NCBI GenBank assembly: GCA_028275165.1
Contig: JAQCNF010000096.1
Span: 1-36,905 of the forward strand
Reading direction: 5' to 3'
Length of the DNA: 36,905 nucleotides
Origin: Haloquadratum sp.
Lineage (GTDB): Archaea > Halobacteriota > Halobacteria > Halobacteriales > Haloferacaceae
Shown here: positions 3,536 through 12,323 of the stretch, piece after piece
Position numbering within the stretch: the first letter of the stretch is position 1
Layout: every line of letters starts with the position of its first letter
Program-made: the position numbers and the translations under genes
The notes under the pieces: model-generated
Told to the model about the DNA's origin: nothing
Databases searched by the model: none
What the model saw: only the letters and a program-made list of their open reading frames with translations

Positions 3536-3646
3536 CTGCTGGATGTAGTGTGCATCTGCTAGTGATTGGCTGTACGCGTGTCCGGTGGAGTGGCTAGTGA
3601 CGTGAATAACTGTGAATCGGTCGGTGCTCCAGCCCTCGCCGGATAG

Positions 3647-4084
3647 TCACTCGTCCCAGAAGGCGTTGATCCTGCTATCGAGATCGGTGAGGACGGTTAC
3701 GAGTATGTCTCGCCAGTCGTCAGGATATTCTGTATCGTCCCCGGGTGTTGGGGCATCTGGGGGCGGGTGGAAGTGCTCACTGGTGTTGTGGTCGTTCGGG
3801 TGGCGGTCCCATCGGCACTTCCACGTGTTACCAATCCGATGCTGTTCTGAATAGTGGATGCTGAAGTCGTCGGTTTCGAACCAGCGAGTCCGGAGATACG
3901 CACGGGTGACGCCACCTGGAAAGTATCCGAGATCATAGTCAGCGACGACTGCGTTCGGGGCGTATGCCGGTTGTGTGTGGAGACGATCGAATCGGTCGGT
4001 CCGAGCGAGGTGGGTGGCGATCCGGTCAAGCAGTTCCGTGTCGACCGGGCCCCGAGTGGGAGGGTCAGCCGTGTCTTCAGGCAT
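3647..4084 (-). CDS. TumE-like protein, candidate toxin of a two-gene module
   Basis: A 145-residue protein starting at the ATG at 4084, which lies inside the end of the upstream HTH gene (8-base overlap, so probably translationally coupled). The C-terminal half has a pattern reminiscent of TumE/DUF6516 toxins: GYFPGGVTRAYLRTRW, a CRWDRHPNDHN segment with a conserved-looking WD and His-rich stretch, then EHFHPPPDAP and a terminal helical segment. Family knowledge: TumE proteins are paired with an HTH antitoxin. Here the HTH gene lies upstream in the same transcript, which fits. The resemblance is by pattern only and remote; it may simply be a haloarchaeal protein of unknown function. Confidence 0.55.
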   Translation of the reverse strand: MPEDTADPPTRGPVDTELLDRIATHLARTDRFDRLHTQPAYAPNAVVADYDLGYFPGGVTRAYLRTRWFETDDFSIHYSEQHRIGNTWKCRWDRHPNDHNTSEHFHPPPDAPTPGDDTEYPDDWRDILVTVLTDLDSRINAFWDE

Positions 4085-4667
4085 CGACTGGGCCGGGCGT
4101 GCCACCGGAGACTGGAGTGTTGCGGCGTGCTGCGTCGAGGAGTGCAGCACGCTGTTCGAGTGTTTCCCACTCGGAGAGTGCTTCCCAGGCTGCTTCCGTG
4201 GACAGATTCTGCTCCTGGGTCGCATCGATGAGGGACACTTCATCCGGGTGCGTTGCGCCGAACCGTGTTGTGTAGTCCTCGGTATGGTCGAGCGTCTCAC
4301 TGAGGAGGTCAACGATCTCCTGTTCGGAGTAGTCTTCGCGGATCCGGTCGATACGCCGCCACTCGAAGTACGCGTCGTTCCGCTCATACCGAACCGGGCG
4401 GCCGTCATGCCGGTGAACCATCCCCATCTCGTCGAACCACTCTAAGTAGTCGCGTGCTGTCTCGATGTCGCACTCGGCACGTTCGGCAACCGTCGAGACC
4501 TTCGTCGGCGTCCGAAGTCCGACGACAACGTCAAGCAGTCGCTCACGGATTGACCCGCCTTTGAGGAGTGAATCAGGCGAGTCCAACGCATCGAGAGCAG
4601 GTAGAGGCTCCTCACCGTCGTAGGCATCATCGGGGATGTCTGTGAGATCCGTCCGTGAACGTTCCAT
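4077..4667 (-). CDS. Winged helix-turn-helix protein (haloarchaeal, DUF7342-like), candidate regulator or antitoxin
   Basis: A 196-residue acidic protein. Residues about 36-90 look like a winged HTH: GSIRERLLDVVVGL, then TKVSTVAERAECDIETARDYLEWF (the two HTH helices), then a GMVHRHDGRPVRYERND wing. The C-terminal half is helical and rich in Glu/Gln, suitable for dimerisation. It shares an 8-base overlap with the downstream TumE-like gene, so the two are probably made together. A TATA run about 27 bases before the ATG predicts a leaderless transcript. Family knowledge: related proteins are annotated as ArsR/TrmB-like regulators. Acting as the antitoxin-repressor of the pair is inference. Confidence 0.7.
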   Translation of the reverse strand: MERSRTDLTDIPDDAYDGEEPLPALDALDSPDSLLKGGSIRERLLDVVVGLRTPTKVSTVAERAECDIETARDYLEWFDEMGMVHRHDGRPVRYERNDAYFEWRRIDRIREDYSEQEIVDLLSETLDHTEDYTTRFGATHPDEVSLIDATQEQNLSTEAAWEALSEWETLEQRAALLDAARRNTPVSGGTPGPVDA

Positions 4668-4815: not shown

Positions 4816-5235
4816 TCAGTCGCCAGTACGCCAGACGGTTTCTTCACTGGTGAAGTTCTCGTCGTTCGTGATGATGGCCTCGGTTCCTCGGATGCGGTGG
4901 TTGGCGATGAGTAAGGCGTCGTGTAGCGTGTGGTGGTCGATGAGGCTCCCGTAGACGGCGAGGTCCTGGTCGTCAGTGGGAGCGATCCGTACCGGCCCGT
5001 CGTTGACGAGTCCCCGCAGCACCGCATTCGGTGTCGTCTCGACGGTGATGCCGGCAATCGTGTTCTTGTTGACTGCCGTCCAGATGGCTTCGCTGACGGT
5101 GACAGTCGGCGCTTCGATCACGTCGATTCCTCGTTCAGACCGCTTGAATACGTCGTCTGCGGCTGGTGGAAGTTGATCAACGAGGTACCGCGCCATCGCC
5201 ACCCCGTCTACAGTGTATCGGGTCACGGCTGCCAC
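4816..5235 (-). CDS. vapC: VapC-type PIN domain ribonuclease toxin
   Basis: A 139-residue PIN-domain protein. The acidic metal-binding residues expected in the fold are visible: Asp10 (in TVDGVAM), Glu49 (TVSEAIW), Asp106 (LHDALLIA) and Asp125 (ITNDENF). Family knowledge: VapC toxins cleave tRNA or rRNA when released from VapB. The start is a GTG at 5235 lying 13 bases inside vapB, so translation is probably coupled. A second GTG nine bases downstream is an alternative start. The residue after Asp10 is Gly rather than the more usual Ser/Thr/Asn. The gene otherwise looks intact. Confidence 0.88.
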   Translation of the reverse strand: MAAVTRYTVDGVAMARYLVDQLPPAADDVFKRSERGIDVIEAPTVTVSEAIWTAVNKNTIAGITVETTPNAVLRGLVNDGPVRIAPTDDQDLAVYGSLIDHHTLHDALLIANHRIRGTEAIITNDENFTSEETVWRTGD

Positions 5236-5507
5236 TCTTCGTGGCGTTTGTCACGGATCTCAGCTTCCATCTCTTCGGCCATCGCCTCGCGTTTTGCATC
5301 AGGCACATCGTCATCAACGAGCATCCCGCGACCGGCCGACCGTGTCGCCTTCCGGACGATGATCCCGTCATCGGTTTTCTCCCACGCGACCTCATCACCT
5401 TCTTCGAGCCCGAATTCTTCGCGGAGTTCCTTCGGGATGGTGACTTGCCCCTTCCTCGTAATGCGAGTCGTCTTCCCGTCGGTGTCGCTCTCGGTGTCGG
5501 TACTCAT
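5223..5507 (-). CDS. vapB: VapB-type antitoxin, AbrB/SpoVT DNA-binding domain
   Basis: A 94-residue protein. The swapped-hairpin DNA-binding domain is clear at residues about 14-50: TRITRKGQVTIPKELREEF followed by GLEEGDEVAWEKTDDGIIV. The acidic, helical C-terminus (about 60-94) is suited to wrap and block the VapC active site. The gene precedes and overlaps vapC, the classical order. Autoregulation is likely because a perfect palindrome sits directly before its ATG. Confidence 0.9.
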   Translation of the reverse strand: MSTDTESDTDGKTTRITRKGQVTIPKELREEFGLEEGDEVAWEKTDDGIIVRKATRSAGRGMLVDDDVPDAKREAMAEEMEAEIRDKRHEEWQP

Positions 5508-5652: not shown

Positions 5653-5862
5653 TCACCGACGGGACAGATCAAGTTGCTCATCATCGATCGCATCGAGAAA
5701 GTCCCACGCGTGGTAGTGCGTCCACCCATCCACGTGACTCAGGTCCAGATCATCCACGACAATGTACTCGGTTGCATCCGGGAACAGCTCTGCGAGGATG
5801 TGGAGCCGTTCGTCACGATCGGGCCACCACTCGTAGTACCCGTATTTATCCTGCTCACCCAA
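5653..5862 (-). CDS. Short acidic hypothetical protein, probably 5'-truncated
   Basis: A 69-residue frame with TTG start and typical haloarchaeal composition (for example IVVDDLDLSHVDGWTHYHAW). No domain is recognised. No ATG or GTG is available, and in-frame TAG lies a few codons before the TTG, so this may be the remaining 3' part of a gene disrupted at about 5870. It runs opposite to the small frame starting at 5879 and its 5' end overlaps that frame's promoter region. Confidence 0.4.
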   Translation of the reverse strand: MGEQDKYGYYEWWPDRDERLHILAELFPDATEYIVVDDLDLSHVDGWTHYHAWDFLDAIDDEQLDLSRR

Positions 5863-5877
5863 CGCTTCGTACTACGA
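5832..5877 (+). promoter_or_regulatory. TATA box flanked by two vapBC operator-like half-sites
   Basis: CGTAGTAC (5832-5839) and GTACTACG (5869-5876) are exact copies of the two arms of the vapBC operator. They lie on either side of a TATA-like run (GTATTTATCC, about 5842-5851), which sits about 30 bases before the ATG at 5879. The shared arms suggest the same regulator could act here, but the first copy also lies in a possible coding frame on the other strand. Confidence 0.35.
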
Positions 5878-6130: not shown

Positions 6131-6883
6131 TTACGCCGGGACGATGTGTTTCCGCTCGGCAATATATAGCTGTAGCTCCGCGTCAGGGTCTGGGAACTCG
6201 ACGGTGAACAGGAGATAGTGCGGTGTGAGACGAAGCGTGATAACACTGTTTGCAGGGAGAGTCGGGGTGAAGTTCCGAACCACGTTGATCGGGATGGTGA
6301 ACTTCGTTGCTGACCCCTGAATCGCTTCAACGTCATCAGGGCGGACGACGTACGTGAAATCATCTTTACCATCTTGTGTCGCGGTGAATTTGACACGATG
6401 GGTGTCCGGAGCGATCTGAATTTCCATTTCACCGCCGAGCCAGTTCGCTGTTCGCACGGCACGCTTGAACGGGAAGTGACGGATCGAAGTCGTTGCGACC
6501 GCCGTCGAATCTGGTGGAGAAGGCAAGTAATGGCCGTGCGGGGCGATCAGGGATCGGAACTGGTATACAAGCCCGTTGGATTCAATGACAACTGTTGAGT
6601 CAGGCGTTTCGAAAGGGAATGTGACCCGGACTTCACCGTCGGATATTCCGTTGAGGAATCGTGTGATTGGGTTCAGTTTAATCCAAGTGCTGTCGGTGTC
6701 GTCACCGATGGATGTGACCGAGTAGGGAAGTGAGTAGTCAAGGTAGATGGTTCGATTTCGCCTGAATGATTGAAGACGGACTCCGTCAGTGCTGATATCG
6801 ATCCGGCACTCGCTTTCGGTGTGGACGACCCCTGCTGCTCGAAGGATCTGCTTGAGTTTCCTGGCAGCAATCTGCAACGGCAT
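6131..6883 (-). CDS. Divergent PCNA-like sliding clamp paralogue
   Basis: A 250-residue protein, the length of canonical archaeal PCNA. Alignable features are present along the whole chain: an N-terminal AARKLKQILRAAG helix, ECRIDISTDGVRLQSF (strand-turn-strand of the first domain), a GLVYQFRSLIAPHG segment leading into the interdomain linker, FKRAVRTANWLGG (second-domain helix), TKFTIPINVVRNF, and LPANSVITLRLTPHYLLFTVEF near the C-terminus. Identity to canonical haloarchaeal PCNA is clearly low, so this is a paralogue, not the replicative clamp. Its ATG shares one base with the TAA of the upstream transposase-like gene (TAATG), so it is probably translated by coupling. An accessory clamp for the element is inference. 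Confidence 0.75.
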   Translation of the reverse strand: MPLQIAARKLKQILRAAGVVHTESECRIDISTDGVRLQSFRRNRTIYLDYSLPYSVTSIGDDTDSTWIKLNPITRFLNGISDGEVRVTFPFETPDSTVVIESNGLVYQFRSLIAPHGHYLPSPPDSTAVATTSIRHFPFKRAVRTANWLGGEMEIQIAPDTHRVKFTATQDGKDDFTYVVRPDDVEAIQGSATKFTIPINVVRNFTPTLPANSVITLRLTPHYLLFTVEFPDPDAELQLYIAERKHIVPA

Positions 6884-8328
6884 TATGAGTCGGGTTGTAG
6901 GTATTGGTACGCTTTCGAGCGAGTTGGTCCCCCGAAGCTGATTACTTGAATAGCCTCAAGCAACTCTGTCTGCTTTACATCTAGTTCAGCACCGCGTTTC
7001 GGTGATGGGACCGTATTCGCAATTTCATACAGATTGTAAAATAAAGTTGACATATTGTAGTAGAACAATTTCCGATTCGGGTCACGAGAATCCGTGGACA
7101 CGTCAAACCGGTTTTTCGTCAGGCGGAATTGCGTCTCGATCTTGCCACGTTGATCGTACTGTGAGTTCAACTGCCGAATCCGTCTATCCGTTTCTTCGGC
7201 ATCGTCCGGGAGCCGAATGCCGGCCCAGAACGCCCGATATGGATCAATGGACCCCGAATGTCCAAGTAGTTGTACTGGCGGCTCCAACTGTTCAGATCCC
7301 GCGTCCGAGATGACTGCCGTCTGGCCGGGTTCGAGGTTGCTTTTGAGCTTCGCATAATCAGAATCAAGGGCTGTTGAACCACTGGTCTCCTGTGCGTGGA
7401 TTGCCCACCGGTTCGGCACGAACGTTCGACACACCTCGAAATCACGAACCGCATCAAACCCACGATCTGCGAAGAACAACTCTACGTCAACCATCGATCT
7501 CAATGCTCGGAGCAGATTCTGTAACTCGGCTGCTCGCTGCGATTCCGACTTGAGCAACCGAAGCCCGAATGCGAACTCAAACTCAGCATCAACAAACGAC
7601 AGCGACGCAAACCGCCACCGACCGTCACTCGTCGTAAACACCCCGTCGAACGGTTCGGTTCCCAGACAGTCGATGTCCACAAGATCGTACGCAACCCGAA
7701 CCGGTTGAGTAATCGCCCCCGACTCAAGCACGTACTCAAGCAATGATGGATTAATAGCATCGAACATCCGCCTGATATCCCACTGATCTAATTTGTCGAT
7801 ACAGCGTCGAATTGCCGGGCCGCTAAGCGCATCCGCAACATCAAAGATATGGTGGGCTGCCTGCTTGTAGTTTTCAATGCTTTCCCCGGTGGAAGCAGCG
7901 TGTGCGAACACACCGGGTAAGCTCCACAGCCCTCGTGACGCATTCGAGGCACGCCCGAAATCAAGCTGCTCCACGACAATCTCTAAGACGTCAGTCAGCA
8001 ACTCATACAGCAGTATATCTCGTGTGTCAGACGAGAAGTCGCTTGCAGCAGGCCCAGCAGTATACGACAACCCATACTTGATCTTGACTACATCCGGCAC
8101 CGGCACCCCGCCGCAGAACAGCGCGTGTACGGCGAGATAACTCGCCTCGACAAGCAGTGAAAACCGCTCAGCATTCTTCAAGCGCCGCTTTGCGTTTCGG
8201 TAGGTTGATGCACTGAAAGCGCTCTGTAGCTCAAACTGCTCAAGTTGGTCAGTCGAACATTCTGAAATGTGCTCCTGTAACCCAGGAGATGAGAGCTCTC
8301 GCGTGACCCCGATCATCAGCGCACGCAA
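6883..8328 (-). CDS. IS4/ISH3-like DDE transposase, main open frame
   Basis: A 481-residue frame from a TTG at 8328. The RNase H-like catalytic set is visible: Asp215 (VAYDLVDID), Asp288 (FFADRGFD) and Glu398 within the exact IS4-type Y-x2-R-x3-E-x6-K signature (Tyr391, Arg394, Glu398, Lys405). The C-terminal RKLFYYNMSTLFYNLYEI matches the hydrophobic helix that ends ISH3-like transposases. The protein is longer than typical ISH3 transposases. The same frame continues upstream, past a TAG at 8368-8370, into the 8368-8631 segment, so the natural protein was probably about 580 residues and this frame is its larger part. Downstream it is coupled to the PCNA-like gene. Confidence 0.75.
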   Translation of the reverse strand: MRALMIGVTRELSSPGLQEHISECSTDQLEQFELQSAFSASTYRNAKRRLKNAERFSLLVEASYLAVHALFCGGVPVPDVVKIKYGLSYTAGPAASDFSSDTRDILLYELLTDVLEIVVEQLDFGRASNASRGLWSLPGVFAHAASTGESIENYKQAAHHIFDVADALSGPAIRRCIDKLDQWDIRRMFDAINPSLLEYVLESGAITQPVRVAYDLVDIDCLGTEPFDGVFTTSDGRWRFASLSFVDAEFEFAFGLRLLKSESQRAAELQNLLRALRSMVDVELFFADRGFDAVRDFEVCRTFVPNRWAIHAQETSGSTALDSDYAKLKSNLEPGQTAVISDAGSEQLEPPVQLLGHSGSIDPYRAFWAGIRLPDDAEETDRRIRQLNSQYDQRGKIETQFRLTKNRFDVSTDSRDPNRKLFYYNMSTLFYNLYEIANTVPSPKRGAELDVKQTELLEAIQVISFGGPTRSKAYQYLQPDS

Positions 8329-8367
8329 CTTCTGGAGTTCAACCCGGGAGTCCTCTATCCCGATGTT

Positions 8368-8631
8368 CTACAGTATTTTCTTCGCCACCGCACAGAGTGC
8401 TTCGTCAAAGGTCGCATCGACACTTCGTTTCGCGTCTTCCGCATCACAGTTCGGGTCGTACCTGTTCGCGCGCCATCGCAACAATGAGTGGCTTCTCTGC
8501 TTCGATCGTTTGACGACCGTCACCTGGAAGCTCGACTGTGTACTTTCAGCGTTGAATGACCGAAACTCATCAACCGGATCCTGATTCGCGTGGCGCGTTT
8601 CACCGATAGCCGCGTCTTGAAACTGTGTCAC
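8368..8631 (-). pseudogene. N-terminal segment of the transposase, separated by an in-frame amber codon
   Basis: An 87-residue segment from a GTG at 8631 to TAG at 8368-8370, in exactly the same frame as the 481-residue transposase frame. The sequence on both sides of the TAG reads as one helical region (FDEALCAVAKKIL, stop, NIGIEDSRVELQKLRAL), and there is no ATG between them. The natural start of the transposase therefore seems to be at 8631, and the TAG a recent nonsense change (for example from CAG or TGG). Either the protein is split, reinitiates at 8328, or is dead. Confidence 0.6.
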
Positions 8632-8885
8632 ACTGCGTGATTTTAATCATTAGAACTGTATCGGATAAAGCTTAGCCGCACCAGTATCTTTGTCCGTAAC
8701 CTCTTGCAGATCCTAACCTGCGTAATCCCGAATCACCAGACCCTCGAAACTGACGGGCAGCGACCCAAAACGGCAACAATCCCGATTTAAGTACCTCATA
8801 TACTGTTCTGAAAGCCTTCAAAACGATGAATGAACGTGTTGAAACCCGGTTTCACGCTATTCGTATCCTGCGCAAGAACAGTTTA
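8632..8885. other. Intergenic region with transposase promoter
   Basis: On the minus strand CTTTATCC (8663-8670) lies about 35 bases before the GTG at 8631 and is the likely TATA box of the transposase-PCNA transcript. On the plus strand a 26-codon frame (8826-8906) follows a TATTTAAG-like run, but nothing supports it as a gene. No terminal inverted repeats could be identified by eye. Confidence 0.4.
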
Positions 8886-9014
8886 TTAAGAATATTTTAT
8901 GAGTAGGATCTGAGTGATCTCTTCGGCTGGGCCGCGAATCGGGACGGTATCTTCAGGACGGCCGAGGTGAGTGAAATCTTCCAAGCCATCAGGTGTAGCT
9001 ACAAATTTGACACT
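8886..9014 (-). pseudogene. Relic of a second PCNA-like gene
   Basis: The minus-strand frame ending in TAA at 8886-8888 reads PSVKFVATPDGLEDFTHLGR, then PEDTVPIRGPAEE. This aligns with residues about 165-190 of the PCNA-like protein at 6131-6883 (HRVKFTATQDGKDDFTYVV, RPDDVEAIQGSATKF). The nucleotide sequences are also recognisably similar. Only this one-sixth of the gene remains; no start or C-terminal strands are visible. Confidence 0.6.
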
Positions 9015-9530: not shown

Positions 9531-10898
9531 ATGAATAGAACGGGACAGAATACCGATGACAGTATCGAATTCCTAGAGATCAGCGATCAGCTATCTGAAC
9601 AGGTTAGTGACGATGCTGACCGTGTAGAAAGAGAATATCAGGAATTCTACCAGTGGATGCGGGAGCGAGGAAACGACCACATCAAAGAGAACGGGTTGAG
9701 TAAATCAAATACAGATAACTACTTTCGTCGAGTAGACCAACTTCACCGGGTTGCACTTGGCTCATTCGACTCGGATGAGGTGATGCTTACCCCCGACCAA
9801 GCAGATGAACTGATGCTAATGCTTGCGCGGGATGAGATCACTAAGCAGAACGGTGGGACGTATGCTAAGACCTCTAAACGGAAGTTCTTGGATGCAGTGA
9901 AGAAGTATCTTGAATGGCGGTACTACGAAGGAGAGCTAGAGTTCGAATGGACACCACGAATTAAATTTTCTGATGGAAGTCACACACAAGCAGCCGAGTT
10001 CACCTACGAGGAGATCGGCCGCTTGCTTGAAGAAGCGGAATCGCACGGGAAGCTGCCCTCATATTATGAAACGTCTGCTGAGGAACGTGAACGGATCAAC
10101 GGGCTCGTTGCGCAGCGACTCGGAAAACCGAAAGAGACGATCAACCGCGACGACTGGCGCAGAGCAGATCAGAGTGCAACGATCGCTTGTCTCGGTCGGA
10201 TACGACTGCGGTCTCACGCCGAAAGAGGTGACGAAAGCCAAAGTCAACTGGTATAAACCGGAGCAACAGATCCTGAAAATCCCGACTGACGTAGCCCAAA
10301 AGAGCGTGAAAAAGAGATTATCTCGCTATCAGATGACGCTGCTGAGGATCTGAGCTTCTGGATCCGAGAACGCCGACATCTGGAAAAATACGATGGAACC
10401 AACCTACTCTGGTTGAACCGAGAGGGTAACCCATACACGTCCGGGAGCCTGTGTCGAATTCTCCGGAAGTTGTGTGATCAGGCTGATGTTCCGAGCAAAG
10501 ACCGGCCGATTCAGTGGTATAGTCTCCGGCACTCAGTAGGTCGCTATATGAAATCGGACGGGTCACTAAGCCAGACCAATGACCAACTGCGACACGATAC
10601 CTTCGAAACCACTGAAACAACCTGCGGGAATTCTGCGCCCGAGGAAAGACAAGTCACACTGAACGAAAGCCGGGAGAAAGCTGAACGGGCAGCGAACGAC
10701 CCGGATTATAATCCGTATGATGACGAAGTTGATATTACTAGAGAGTTTGGCGAGCCTGAGGGGGCTGCGCCCGATGATGCGGTTACGTCAACCGAGAGTG
10801 GGGTCCATGTGGACGCACACATCAAAGATACGACCGAGAACCGGGCGGATATCAGTCGGCAACTGCTCTCTGATGACGGGTCGTCTTCGTCGTCGTAG
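9531..10898 (+). pseudogene. Tyrosine recombinase/integrase, broken by two frameshifts
   Basis: Three consecutive frames together spell one integrase. The first (from ATG 9531) gives the N-terminal SAM-like core-binding domain up to about 10165. The second covers SLVSVGYDCGLTPKEVTKA to about 10305. The third runs from EIISLSDDAAEDLSFW through WYSLRHSVGRYM to TAG at 10896-10898. Besides the frameshifts, the active site is decayed: the box I Arg is Thr (GLTPKEV, against GLRPIEV in the neighbour), and the nucleophile Tyr region reads ETTETTCGNSAP where the neighbour has ETTMKYDQTP. It is homologous to the intact gene at 10899-12026 but has a longer acidic C-terminal tail. Confidence 0.85.
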
Positions 10899-12026
10899 TC
10901 ACCCCATTCTGTCTAAGGCGTCACGTCTGTCCTCAACTGGAGTCTGATCGTACTTCATCGTCGTTTCCGGACCGAGATGCCGGAGTTGCGTCTGCGCGGC
11001 CGCGAGATCCTCTTCTCGCGTCATATACGTCCCGGTTGAGTGCCGGACCGTGTACCAGCTCATCGTCCGGTTGTCAGTCGAGATCCCCGCGATGTCACAC
11101 AGTTTATATAGCACATACCGGAGAGCATAGGATCCGTAGGGGTTTGCTTCGCGGGTGAGCCACAGTGCGTCGGTATCGTCGTGCTTGTCGACCGCGCTCC
11201 GTTGCGACAGCCAGTAGTCCAGCATCTCGGCAGTCCGATCCTGTAAGCCGACGATCCAGTTTTCTTCAATCTTCGAACTTTCCTCACGGGGGATACGGAG
11301 CACGCTGTTGTCAATGTCTACCCAACTGACTGTCGCACGTTCAACCTCAATAGGCCGCAGCCCTGCGTCTAAACTGACCCAGACGAGTGTCGGGATCTTC
11401 CAGTTGTTGGCTCGCTCCCAGTCCTCTCTCGATATCTCGGATTTGGGCTTCTCGAATCGCTGCGCGAGGTGAGCTTTCCACCGTTCACGACGTTCCCCAG
11501 TGACGTTATCGAAACTAGGGACGGAACCGTATTCAAGCGCTGCCTCACGGATCTTGGCCCGTTCTTCCTGCGTCAGGTAGTCGCGGGGTGTGGTCGATTG
11601 ATTCGATCGGGAGAACGTGATGTCGGGCGACCACTCGTCTGCACCACAGCGATGAGACCGCCACTTGAACAGCATCATCAGCGCCTTCCAGCACGCGGAT
11701 TTGTGCCCGTTCGAGTATTCCTGCCGAGCGAGGTGCTTCAGACACGCATCCGCGTGGTCAGTCGTGATCGCGGATGTATACCCATCTTCGTGCTTCCAGA
11801 CCCACCGGTAGAACTGGTCCATCCGACTAGCCCGGTTCTTTACCGTGGAGTACGCATACCCCTCGGCGCTGTCAGGATCTTTCCCAAAGGTCAACAGCCA
11901 TTCGAGACACTGTTCGCGGTCGCTCCGATAATCAACTCGTTGGTGTTCGTTCAGCAGTTTCTCGGACGGTTCTGGCACGACAGAGATTCCCTCAAGCGGG
12001 CTCGTTGCCGGTGTCGAGTTCTTCAT
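10899..12026 (-). CDS. Tyrosine recombinase/integrase, intact
   Basis: A 375-residue phage-type integrase. Residues about 30-130 form the core-binding domain (YAYSTVKNRASRMDQFYRWV). The catalytic domain shows Arg224 (DAGLRPIEVERA), the box II segment WYTVRHSTGTYM (Arg328), His350 (LRHLG) and nucleophile Tyr359 (TTMKYDQTP). The start ATG is inside the remains of a small AbrB-like gene. The gene lies 222 bases from the 3' end of tRNA-Glu(CTC), the usual place for an integrase of an element that integrates into a tRNA gene. Its stop codon directly abuts the stop of the dead integrase on the other strand. Probably the functional recombinase of the island. Confidence 0.88.
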   Translation of the reverse strand: MKNSTPATSPLEGISVVPEPSEKLLNEHQRVDYRSDREQCLEWLLTFGKDPDSAEGYAYSTVKNRASRMDQFYRWVWKHEDGYTSAITTDHADACLKHLARQEYSNGHKSACWKALMMLFKWRSHRCGADEWSPDITFSRSNQSTTPRDYLTQEERAKIREAALEYGSVPSFDNVTGERRERWKAHLAQRFEKPKSEISREDWERANNWKIPTLVWVSLDAGLRPIEVERATVSWVDIDNSVLRIPREESSKIEENWIVGLQDRTAEMLDYWLSQRSAVDKHDDTDALWLTREANPYGSYALRYVLYKLCDIAGISTDNRTMSWYTVRHSTGTYMTREEDLAAAQTQLRHLGPETTMKYDQTPVEDRRDALDRMG

Positions 12027-12200: not shown

Positions 12201-12248
12201 ACTCTTGATTCACTGGGCAAAACCACCGGACAGCGACCGAAGAAGAAG

Positions 12249-12323
12249 TGCTCCGTTTGGGATTTGAACCCAAGTCCTTGCCGTGAGAGGGCAAGATGAT
12301 TGGCCGGACTACACCAACGGAGC
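12249..12323 (-). tRNA. tRNA-Glu (anticodon CTC)
   Basis: The minus strand folds into a complete tRNA of 75 bases. The 7-bp acceptor stem is GCTCCGT paired with ACGGAGC plus discriminator A, with no encoded CCA. The D arm has AGTCCGGCC. The anticodon stem TTGCC/GGCAA closes the loop CTCTCAC (anticodon CTC after U33). The T arm is TTGGG/CCCAA enclosing TTCAAAT. The D-arm sequence matches the usual haloarchaeal tRNA-Glu. An A/T-rich run (ATATACATATCC) just upstream is a plausible promoter element. The gene is intact, as expected if it is the integration site of the neighbouring element. Confidence 0.95.

Follow-up and report, generated by a model that had tools for sequence, protein, structure and literature searches.

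A DDE transposase-type gene and a diverged PCNA gene form a recurrent two-gene cassette in haloarchaea

Introduction

On the minus strand of a 36,905-nucleotide stretch of Haloquadratum sp. DNA (contig JAQCNF010000096.1; this whole stretch is called the window below), a gene for a DDE transposase runs into a gene for a protein resembling the sliding clamp PCNA, the two sharing a single base within the letters TAATG (6881..6885). Are the two genes neighbours by accident, do they constitute a transposon equipped with its own clamp, as an earlier note on this DNA had considered, or do their products work together in another capacity? Transposases are known to lean on the replication clamp of their host, and a lineage encoding its own clamp would show this dependence taken in-house. 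Here we describe the gene pair, referred to as the cassette, at further loci and weigh what its two products may do.

Results

The gene pair recurs in four deep groups

Homologues were sought in overlapping samples of 391 class-level, 392 phylum-level and 392 order-level genomes and in the GTDB contig collection. The transposase-clamp pair was found at 17 loci in 17 genomes, and its transposases fall into four deep groups with identities down to about 20%. Group A (nine loci) comprises the window, G029, G348 (Halorubrum vacuolatum), G268 (strain SHR40), G033, G385, G354, G729 and H. laminariae; group B (four) consists of G052, G260 (H. alkaliphilum), G261 and G333 (Halomicroarcula SYNS111); group C (two) of G069 and G165; and group D (two) of G360 and G362, the species and strain names of G-labelled loci having been assigned by inference. 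In the order-level search (392 genomes) the clamp adjoins all 14 transposases with E<=2e-197 and none of the 13 with E values from 9e-114 to 2e-62. Next to one of the related transposases outside the four groups there is a weak clamp candidate. The profiles had been built with the help of 13 of the 14 clamp-paired transposases; the one independent case is G729, which was found blind. The scanned loci cover about 1.5 kb on each side, and the clamps of G069, G165 and G360 were recognised among 18 further stretches scanned around related transposases.

Gene order is fixed: at all 17 loci the clamp gene comes second, on the same strand and at most 88 nt from the transposase gene. A one-base overlap is present at eight of the nine group A loci, as TAATG at six, TGATG in G268 and TAGTG in G385. 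H. laminariae retains TAATG as well, but its transposase gene is frameshifted and the last part of that gene reads in frame into the clamp gene. Overlaps of four bases occur in G069, G165 and G360 and of seven bases in G261, and the called genes are separated by 2 nt in G362, 25 nt in G260, 36 nt in G333 and 88 nt in G052. This arrangement suggests translational coupling of transposase and clamp.

The two proteins have also diverged in step. Pairwise distances between transposases and those between clamps correlate with r 0.945 over all loci and with r 0.774 within group A, values that none of 5000 permutations reached in either case. Trees with 17 rows recover groups B, C and D for both proteins and group A as a clade for the transposase; both 13-row trees hold group A together. 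The rate of nonsynonymous substitution (dN) is far below the synonymous rate (dS) for both genes in all five pairs compared, with dS near saturation, and clamp dN amounts to 1.5-2.1 times transposase dN in these pairs. Both genes are under constraint. The possibility raised in the earlier note that the clamp gene is a relic under relaxed selection can thereby be discarded, and with 17 loci keeping the two genes as neighbours at matched distances the coupling is not accidental.

Several loci bear on the edges of this family. On the Haloarcula halobia plasmid NZ_CP119788 (locus L139, 5602-6285) a 227-amino-acid open reading frame (ORF), absent from the PLSDB gene table, starts 9 nt after a distant transposase; it matches the NCBIfam sliding clamp model with E 0.0076, has almost no profile score and is a possible eighteenth pair that is not counted here. 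Sister transposases of about 700 amino acids that lack a clamp (L126, L136 (6003-6617), L128 and L130 (4750-5241)) are followed by other recurrent genes, which encode either a 205-amino-acid XerA-like recombinase or a protein of 164-185 amino acids with a weak zinc-ribbon match. The transposase lineage may swap partner genes. A transposase adjoining a plasmid PCNA gene in Natronomonas marina was rejected as a candidate, as it is of another family. No relatives were confirmed in phages or in viral contigs, which were searched with a few peptide patterns.

The second gene encodes a diverged PCNA

The clamp gene of the window (6131..6883, minus strand) starts with ATG and encodes 250 amino acids in an intact frame, as the earlier note had read it. 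The protein has no match in Pfam nor in a single-sequence search of the PDB; the NCBIfam sliding clamp model recognises it with E 6.7e-6, and a profile of 11 cassette clamps aligns with H. volcanii PCNA (3hi8) over its full length (positions 3-248, E 3.8e-40). Pfam PCNA_N scores above cut-off for the clamps of G052 and G362. An AlphaFold model of the window clamp, built with six sequences, is of moderate confidence (predicted local distance difference test (pLDDT) 62, predicted template modelling score (pTM) 0.55). When it was used as a Foldseek query, the best match was H. volcanii PCNA (E 7.8e-13, with 13-14% identity in the Foldseek alignments), and all 50 listed matches were PCNA or PCNA complexes. 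The 250-residue protein is thus a diverged PCNA paralogue, in agreement with the earlier assignment.

The interdomain connecting loop (IDCL) and the C-terminal sequence of haloarchaeal core PCNA form the surface that binds PCNA-interacting protein (PIP) boxes. The EPDIPDLDL-type connector loop and the APRI C-tail found in seven other PCNAs are absent from all 13 aligned cassette clamps. Net charge also differs, ranging from +6 to -31 in the 17 cassette clamps versus -32 to -44 in the seven other haloarchaeal PCNAs. A separate, normal PCNA is encoded on contig C33 of the Haloquadratum genome. Because of this gene and the missing IDCL and C-tail sequence, replacement of the host clamp, one of the roles suggested earlier, is judged unlikely.

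Further clamp sequences of this kind occur in the same genome. Just 5' of the transposase gene, between it and a UPF0047 gene, lie the decayed remains of a second, closely similar clamp gene (8913..9011, minus strand); the 33 residues encoded there align to residues 164-196 of the intact clamp with 52% identity (E 1.5e-5). Another such clamp, with one internal stop, is located at the end of contig C160 (36-782; L173); by eye it is closest to the clamps of group C, and its partner transposase, if any, would lie beyond the contig end.

The first gene encodes a transposase with an intact catalytic set

The transposase gene of the window (6883..8631, minus strand) belongs to the IS4/ISH3/IS1634 superfamily, comprises 582 codons starting with GTG and is interrupted by one in-frame TAG (8368..8370, minus strand); the catalytic D, D and E are intact. 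The 481-residue frame with a TTG start described in the earlier note, whose end at 6883 is correct, is only part of this gene: the ORF at 8368..8631 matches six full-length transposase homologues, aligns by eye with their N-termini and shares the frame of the 481-residue ORF, with a single TAG between the two. A frameshift was ruled out as the cause of the break.

The Y-x2-R-x3-E-x6-K signature is exact in the window protein (YDQRGKIETQFRLTK), as had been observed before, and is borne out by the homologues: D, D, E and R are invariant in 15 aligned transposases, and Y and K are conserved in at least 90% of them. As these families have been defined, the YREK motif is the hallmark of IS4 and E-(3)-R the signature of ISH3 (PMC2266710). 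The clamp-paired group carries both. Pfam DDE_Tnp_1 is above cut-off for the copies from G268, G260 and G333, and the window fragment gives E 0.094. The NCBIfam ISH3 model yields 37-57 bits in five proteins, and its cut-off of 225 is not reached. A structural model of the H. vacuolatum transposase (pLDDT 69) is nearest to piggyBac (E 2e-7) and Tn5 (E 1.5e-5), with TM scores of about 0.4.

An N-terminal tail motif, [QK]-x2-[VT]-x2-F-x2-[FL], is common to all nine transposases of group A; eight show it in a pattern search, and that of G729 does so when read from an internal ATG. The region has a model pLDDT below 50 (residues 1-71) and the alignment is shallow there. The motif is a candidate clamp contact in group A. 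An N-terminal H-x-D-x-F, tried as a clamp-specific motif, was rejected because it is also present in the clamp-less sister transposases.

Detectable ends and recent copies are lacking

For each of 13 loci, 10-100% of 156 mismatched flank pairs contained an inverted repeat at least as good as the best ungapped one within 400 nt of the cassette, so that none of the 13 exceeds the control, and an ungapped search of 1-kb flanks, run without a control, brought up nothing prominent. Eight aligned group A loci have 13 invariant columns in the 200 nt upstream of the cassette compared with one in the 200 nt after the clamp gene. The upstream columns include TTTAT, a core resembling a TATA box, which is found 5' of the transposase gene at 8665..8669 (minus strand) of the window and is invariant in all eight; a second upstream element, ATTAnCGGATTG, is conserved in group A less strictly than TTTAT.

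No pair among the 17 transposases is more than 70% identical, and no genome has a second clamp-bearing transposase among the top few candidates scored in each. Searching DNA within the genus gave no clean empty site for the cassette. Copies with 81-83% DNA identity do exist in different genomes for the clamp-less sister group, and their boundaries differ from pair to pair. Taken together, the tests of repeats, flanks, copies and boundaries point to a gene cassette rather than an insertion sequence; degenerate ends could escape the repeat and flank tests.

Most cassettes lie beside integrases or defence-type genes

Two related tyrosine integrases accompany seven of the 17 cassettes, from all four groups (the window and G354; G261 and G333; G069; G360 and G362). 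The nearer one lies within 900 bp of the cassette and the second further out; with respect to the nearer one, the cassette is not always oriented the same way. In G069 the called frame of the nearer integrase overlaps the called cassette, and in the window this integrase is split in two (ORFs 9531-10256 and 10413-10898, together 9531..10898, plus strand), followed by the second integrase of 375 amino acids (10899..12026, minus strand) and a tRNA-Glu(CTC) gene (12248..12323, minus strand) that is a possible island integration site. No direct or inverted copy of this tRNA that might serve as attachment site was found. A tRNA-Glu(CTC) gene lies within 5.4 kb at six of the 17 loci and a tRNA gene of any kind at ten; by estimate, one given tRNA gene is expected that near a random point of a 3.5-Mb genome in about 0.3% of cases. 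Between clamp and nearer integrase, two loci from different groups (L068 at 8661 and L071 at 11551) hold an inverted 17-18-nt copy of the tRNA-Glu anticodon stem that may once have been an attachment site. Next to the cassettes of two Halorubrum species are arrays of 14-15 tRNA genes (L064, 3871-7652; L070, 3452-7547), and the similar arrays next to G348 of group A and G260 of group B are adjoined at opposite ends.

Six other loci have restriction- or defence-type neighbours, which together with the integrase loci makes 13 of 17. These neighbours are a methyl-directed restriction enzyme (mREase) in G033 and G165; Mrr and HerA in H. laminariae; HerA and a PLD-type protein in G348, whose PLD match is below cut-off and which is homologous to the protein of G385; an NgoFVII/PLD-type protein 3.6 kb away in G385, together with another integrase; and TmtA in G052. 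The cassettes of G033, G052 and G729 have an ADP-ribosylglycohydrolase gene nearby, those of G033 and G052 also a HEAT-repeat gene. A fragment about 77% identical to part of this HEAT-repeat gene sits just downstream of the window clamp (5693..5869, minus strand). A Cdc6-type AAA protein next to G261 gives the only TniB-like match among the scanned neighbours, with E 3e-4 and below the cut-off; a TnsABC-type set was not specifically sought.

Further downstream in the window, at 4816-5507 (minus strand), a gene for a MazE-type antitoxin is followed by one for a probable PIN-type toxin, recognised by eye and without a Pfam match. The genes at 3646-4658 are without identification; DNA copies of this segment, 73-80% identical, are present elsewhere in the genome and in a congener, and one also adjoins a clamp-less sister transposase (L136).

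Discussion

We give roughly even chances to the reading that the cassette is an island-borne two-gene operon whose transposase-type nuclease and dedicated clamp act as partners, and which travels as island cargo in haloarchaea. The direct basis for this reading is the PCNA homology of the clamp, the catalytic residues of the transposase, the adjacency and overlap of the genes, their matched distances, constraint on both, the island context and the lack of detectable ends. The first gene would supply a DDE (RNase H-fold) transposase-type nuclease and the second a dedicated, fast-evolving PCNA, both probably made together by means of translational coupling. The clamp would form a ring, either as a homotrimer or mixed with host PCNA, and might be placed on DNA at forks or nicks by the host's replication factor C; there it would bind the nuclease physically and hold or direct it. 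Such a device would serve as an island-borne nuclease, perhaps against viruses or plasmids, and not as a self-moving insertion sequence. Binding between clamp and nuclease, ring formation and nuclease activity are proposed here from the two protein families and their genomic arrangement. More broadly, and with odds that we put somewhat better than even, the pair may represent an undescribed class of machine, in which a nuclease of transposase type depends obligately on a private clamp; such a machine would be ancient in haloarchaea, be exchanged between islands as a unit, and attack replicating foreign DNA or target transposition without the host clamp. With only two genes, the system is small enough for clamp-guided DNA cutting or targeting to be put to a direct test in Haloferax, and the known archaeal mechanisms of defence type or of transposition may gain a new one through it.

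A number of observations weigh against a clamp-tethered nuclease. A canonical PIP box is present in none of the 13 transposases scanned. The octet QFELQSAF, in which the earlier note had seen a partial PIP-like motif, is not conserved in this form, its place being taken by DFGLHTAY, RFELHSDY, QYGLRYAY and others, and the proposed contact through it falls with this result. The lack of PIP boxes would fit a private clamp with an altered PIP-binding surface. Groups B-D lack the tail motif of group A. Two of the 17 transposases, those of the window and H. laminariae, are broken, and related transposases exist without a clamp. Group A is unresolved in the 17-row clamp tree, and the cassette clamps, which have long branches, do not form one clade in a tree that also includes 24 other PCNA-like proteins. 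The clamps of group C (G069 and G165) are very diverged and weakly supported as PCNAs. Before they entered the profile, they were found with E 2.3e-8 (G069) and 4e-4 (G165) by a profile of 37 PCNA-like proteins that included 13 cassette clamps; neither is detected with a profile built solely from ten other PCNAs. The NCBIfam sliding clamp model gives 0.053 for G069 and no match for G165, and hhalign reports E 0.0068 for the G069 clamp but a probability of 5.6. Both are counted because position, length and the four-base overlap speak for them. The defence-type neighbours were chosen by eye without a control set, PADLOC has no family at E<=0.01 for the G268 transposase and the window clamp, and the island context also fits a transposon landing in islands.

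A genuine transposon carrying its own clamp, which would replace host PCNA in finding replicating DNA or processing ends and would not need to fit each host's PCNA, is ranked second and is in our view unlikely but worth serious attention. The intact DDE and YREK-type motifs agree with it, as does the proximity of the transposase model to piggyBac and Tn5; the spread over haloarchaeal families departs from host kinship, the conserved upstream ATTAnCGGATTG could be an end-binding site, and a related IS1634 transposase binds clamps, stronger binding leading to more transposition (PMC4549789). Inverted repeats not above control at 13 loci, a right flank that is not conserved, the distance between all 17 copies, one clamp-bearing transposase per genome among the candidates scored, and homology endpoints that vary between pairs even for the 81-83% identical sister-group copies speak against it. 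The earlier idea of a mobile element with its own clamp thus finds only partial support.

An island helper, in which clamp and nuclease together with the two integrases copy, excise or stabilise the island, appears improbable to us. The integrase pair at seven loci of all four groups and the extra PCNAs on haloarchaeal plasmids and viruses argue for such a role; the pair is absent from the searched flanks of the ten other loci (that of G268 is short, and G385 has a different integrase), and cassette orientation relative to the nearer integrase is variable. Still more improbable is a clamp that by itself poisons host or viral replication or serves as a decoy in it, with the transposase merely a co-transcribed neighbour. 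The raised dN of the clamps and their lack of the IDCL and C-tail sequence seen in other PCNAs are what a conflict protein might show, but the matched distances and fixed gene order across four groups and the invariant catalytic residues of the transposase are hard to square with an idle neighbour. That the genes are accidental neighbours or an artefact of annotation deserves almost no credence: prokaryotic operons often contain short overlaps such as TAATG, yet the pairing holds at 17 loci in four groups and no permutation was as well matched. Among these explanations we favour the clamp-tethered island nuclease.

Relation to known systems

Both protein families are known; their pairing was not found described in open-licence literature. 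In the open-licence full text searched, which leaves most subscription journals and bioRxiv outside, no transposase operon encoding a PCNA was found, and what was found, as excerpts, covers host-clamp binding by transposases and viral PCNAs. Extra, diverged PCNAs on mobile replicons are familiar from haloarchaeal plasmids and tailed viruses such as phiH, and in this respect the cassette clamp resembles them; of 17 plasmid PCNA records six copies were examined, and none of these has a transposase of the cassette family within 3 kb. With H. volcanii PCNA the cassette clamp shares the fold and full-length homology, but at low identity, with less acidic sequences and a different IDCL and C-tail.

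ISH3 elements are described as 1.2-1.5 kb long with conserved ends and target duplications of 4-5 bp (PMC2266710). The cassette has the DDE triad of ISH3/IS4 insertion sequences and unites the IS4 YREK with the ISH3 E-(3)-R, but it differs in its coding length of about 2.5 kb, its lack of detectable ends and its scores far below the ISH3 cut-off. In Tn7, TnsE targets replicating DNA via the beta clamp (PMC5371812). There, too, a mobile-element protein meets a clamp on replicating DNA, as is proposed for the cassette; Tn7 is a bacterial multi-gene transposon that uses the host clamp, and its proteins are unrelated to those of the cassette. The closest parallel is offered by IS1634, described as related to IS4, ISH3 and IS701, whose transposase binds the bacterial beta clamp as well as archaeal PCNA (PMC4549789). 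IS1634 transposases belong to the same superfamily and act through a sliding clamp, as the transposase of the cassette may do, but they borrow that of the host by a short motif, whereas the cassette, in which the canonical motif was not found, encodes a clamp of its own.

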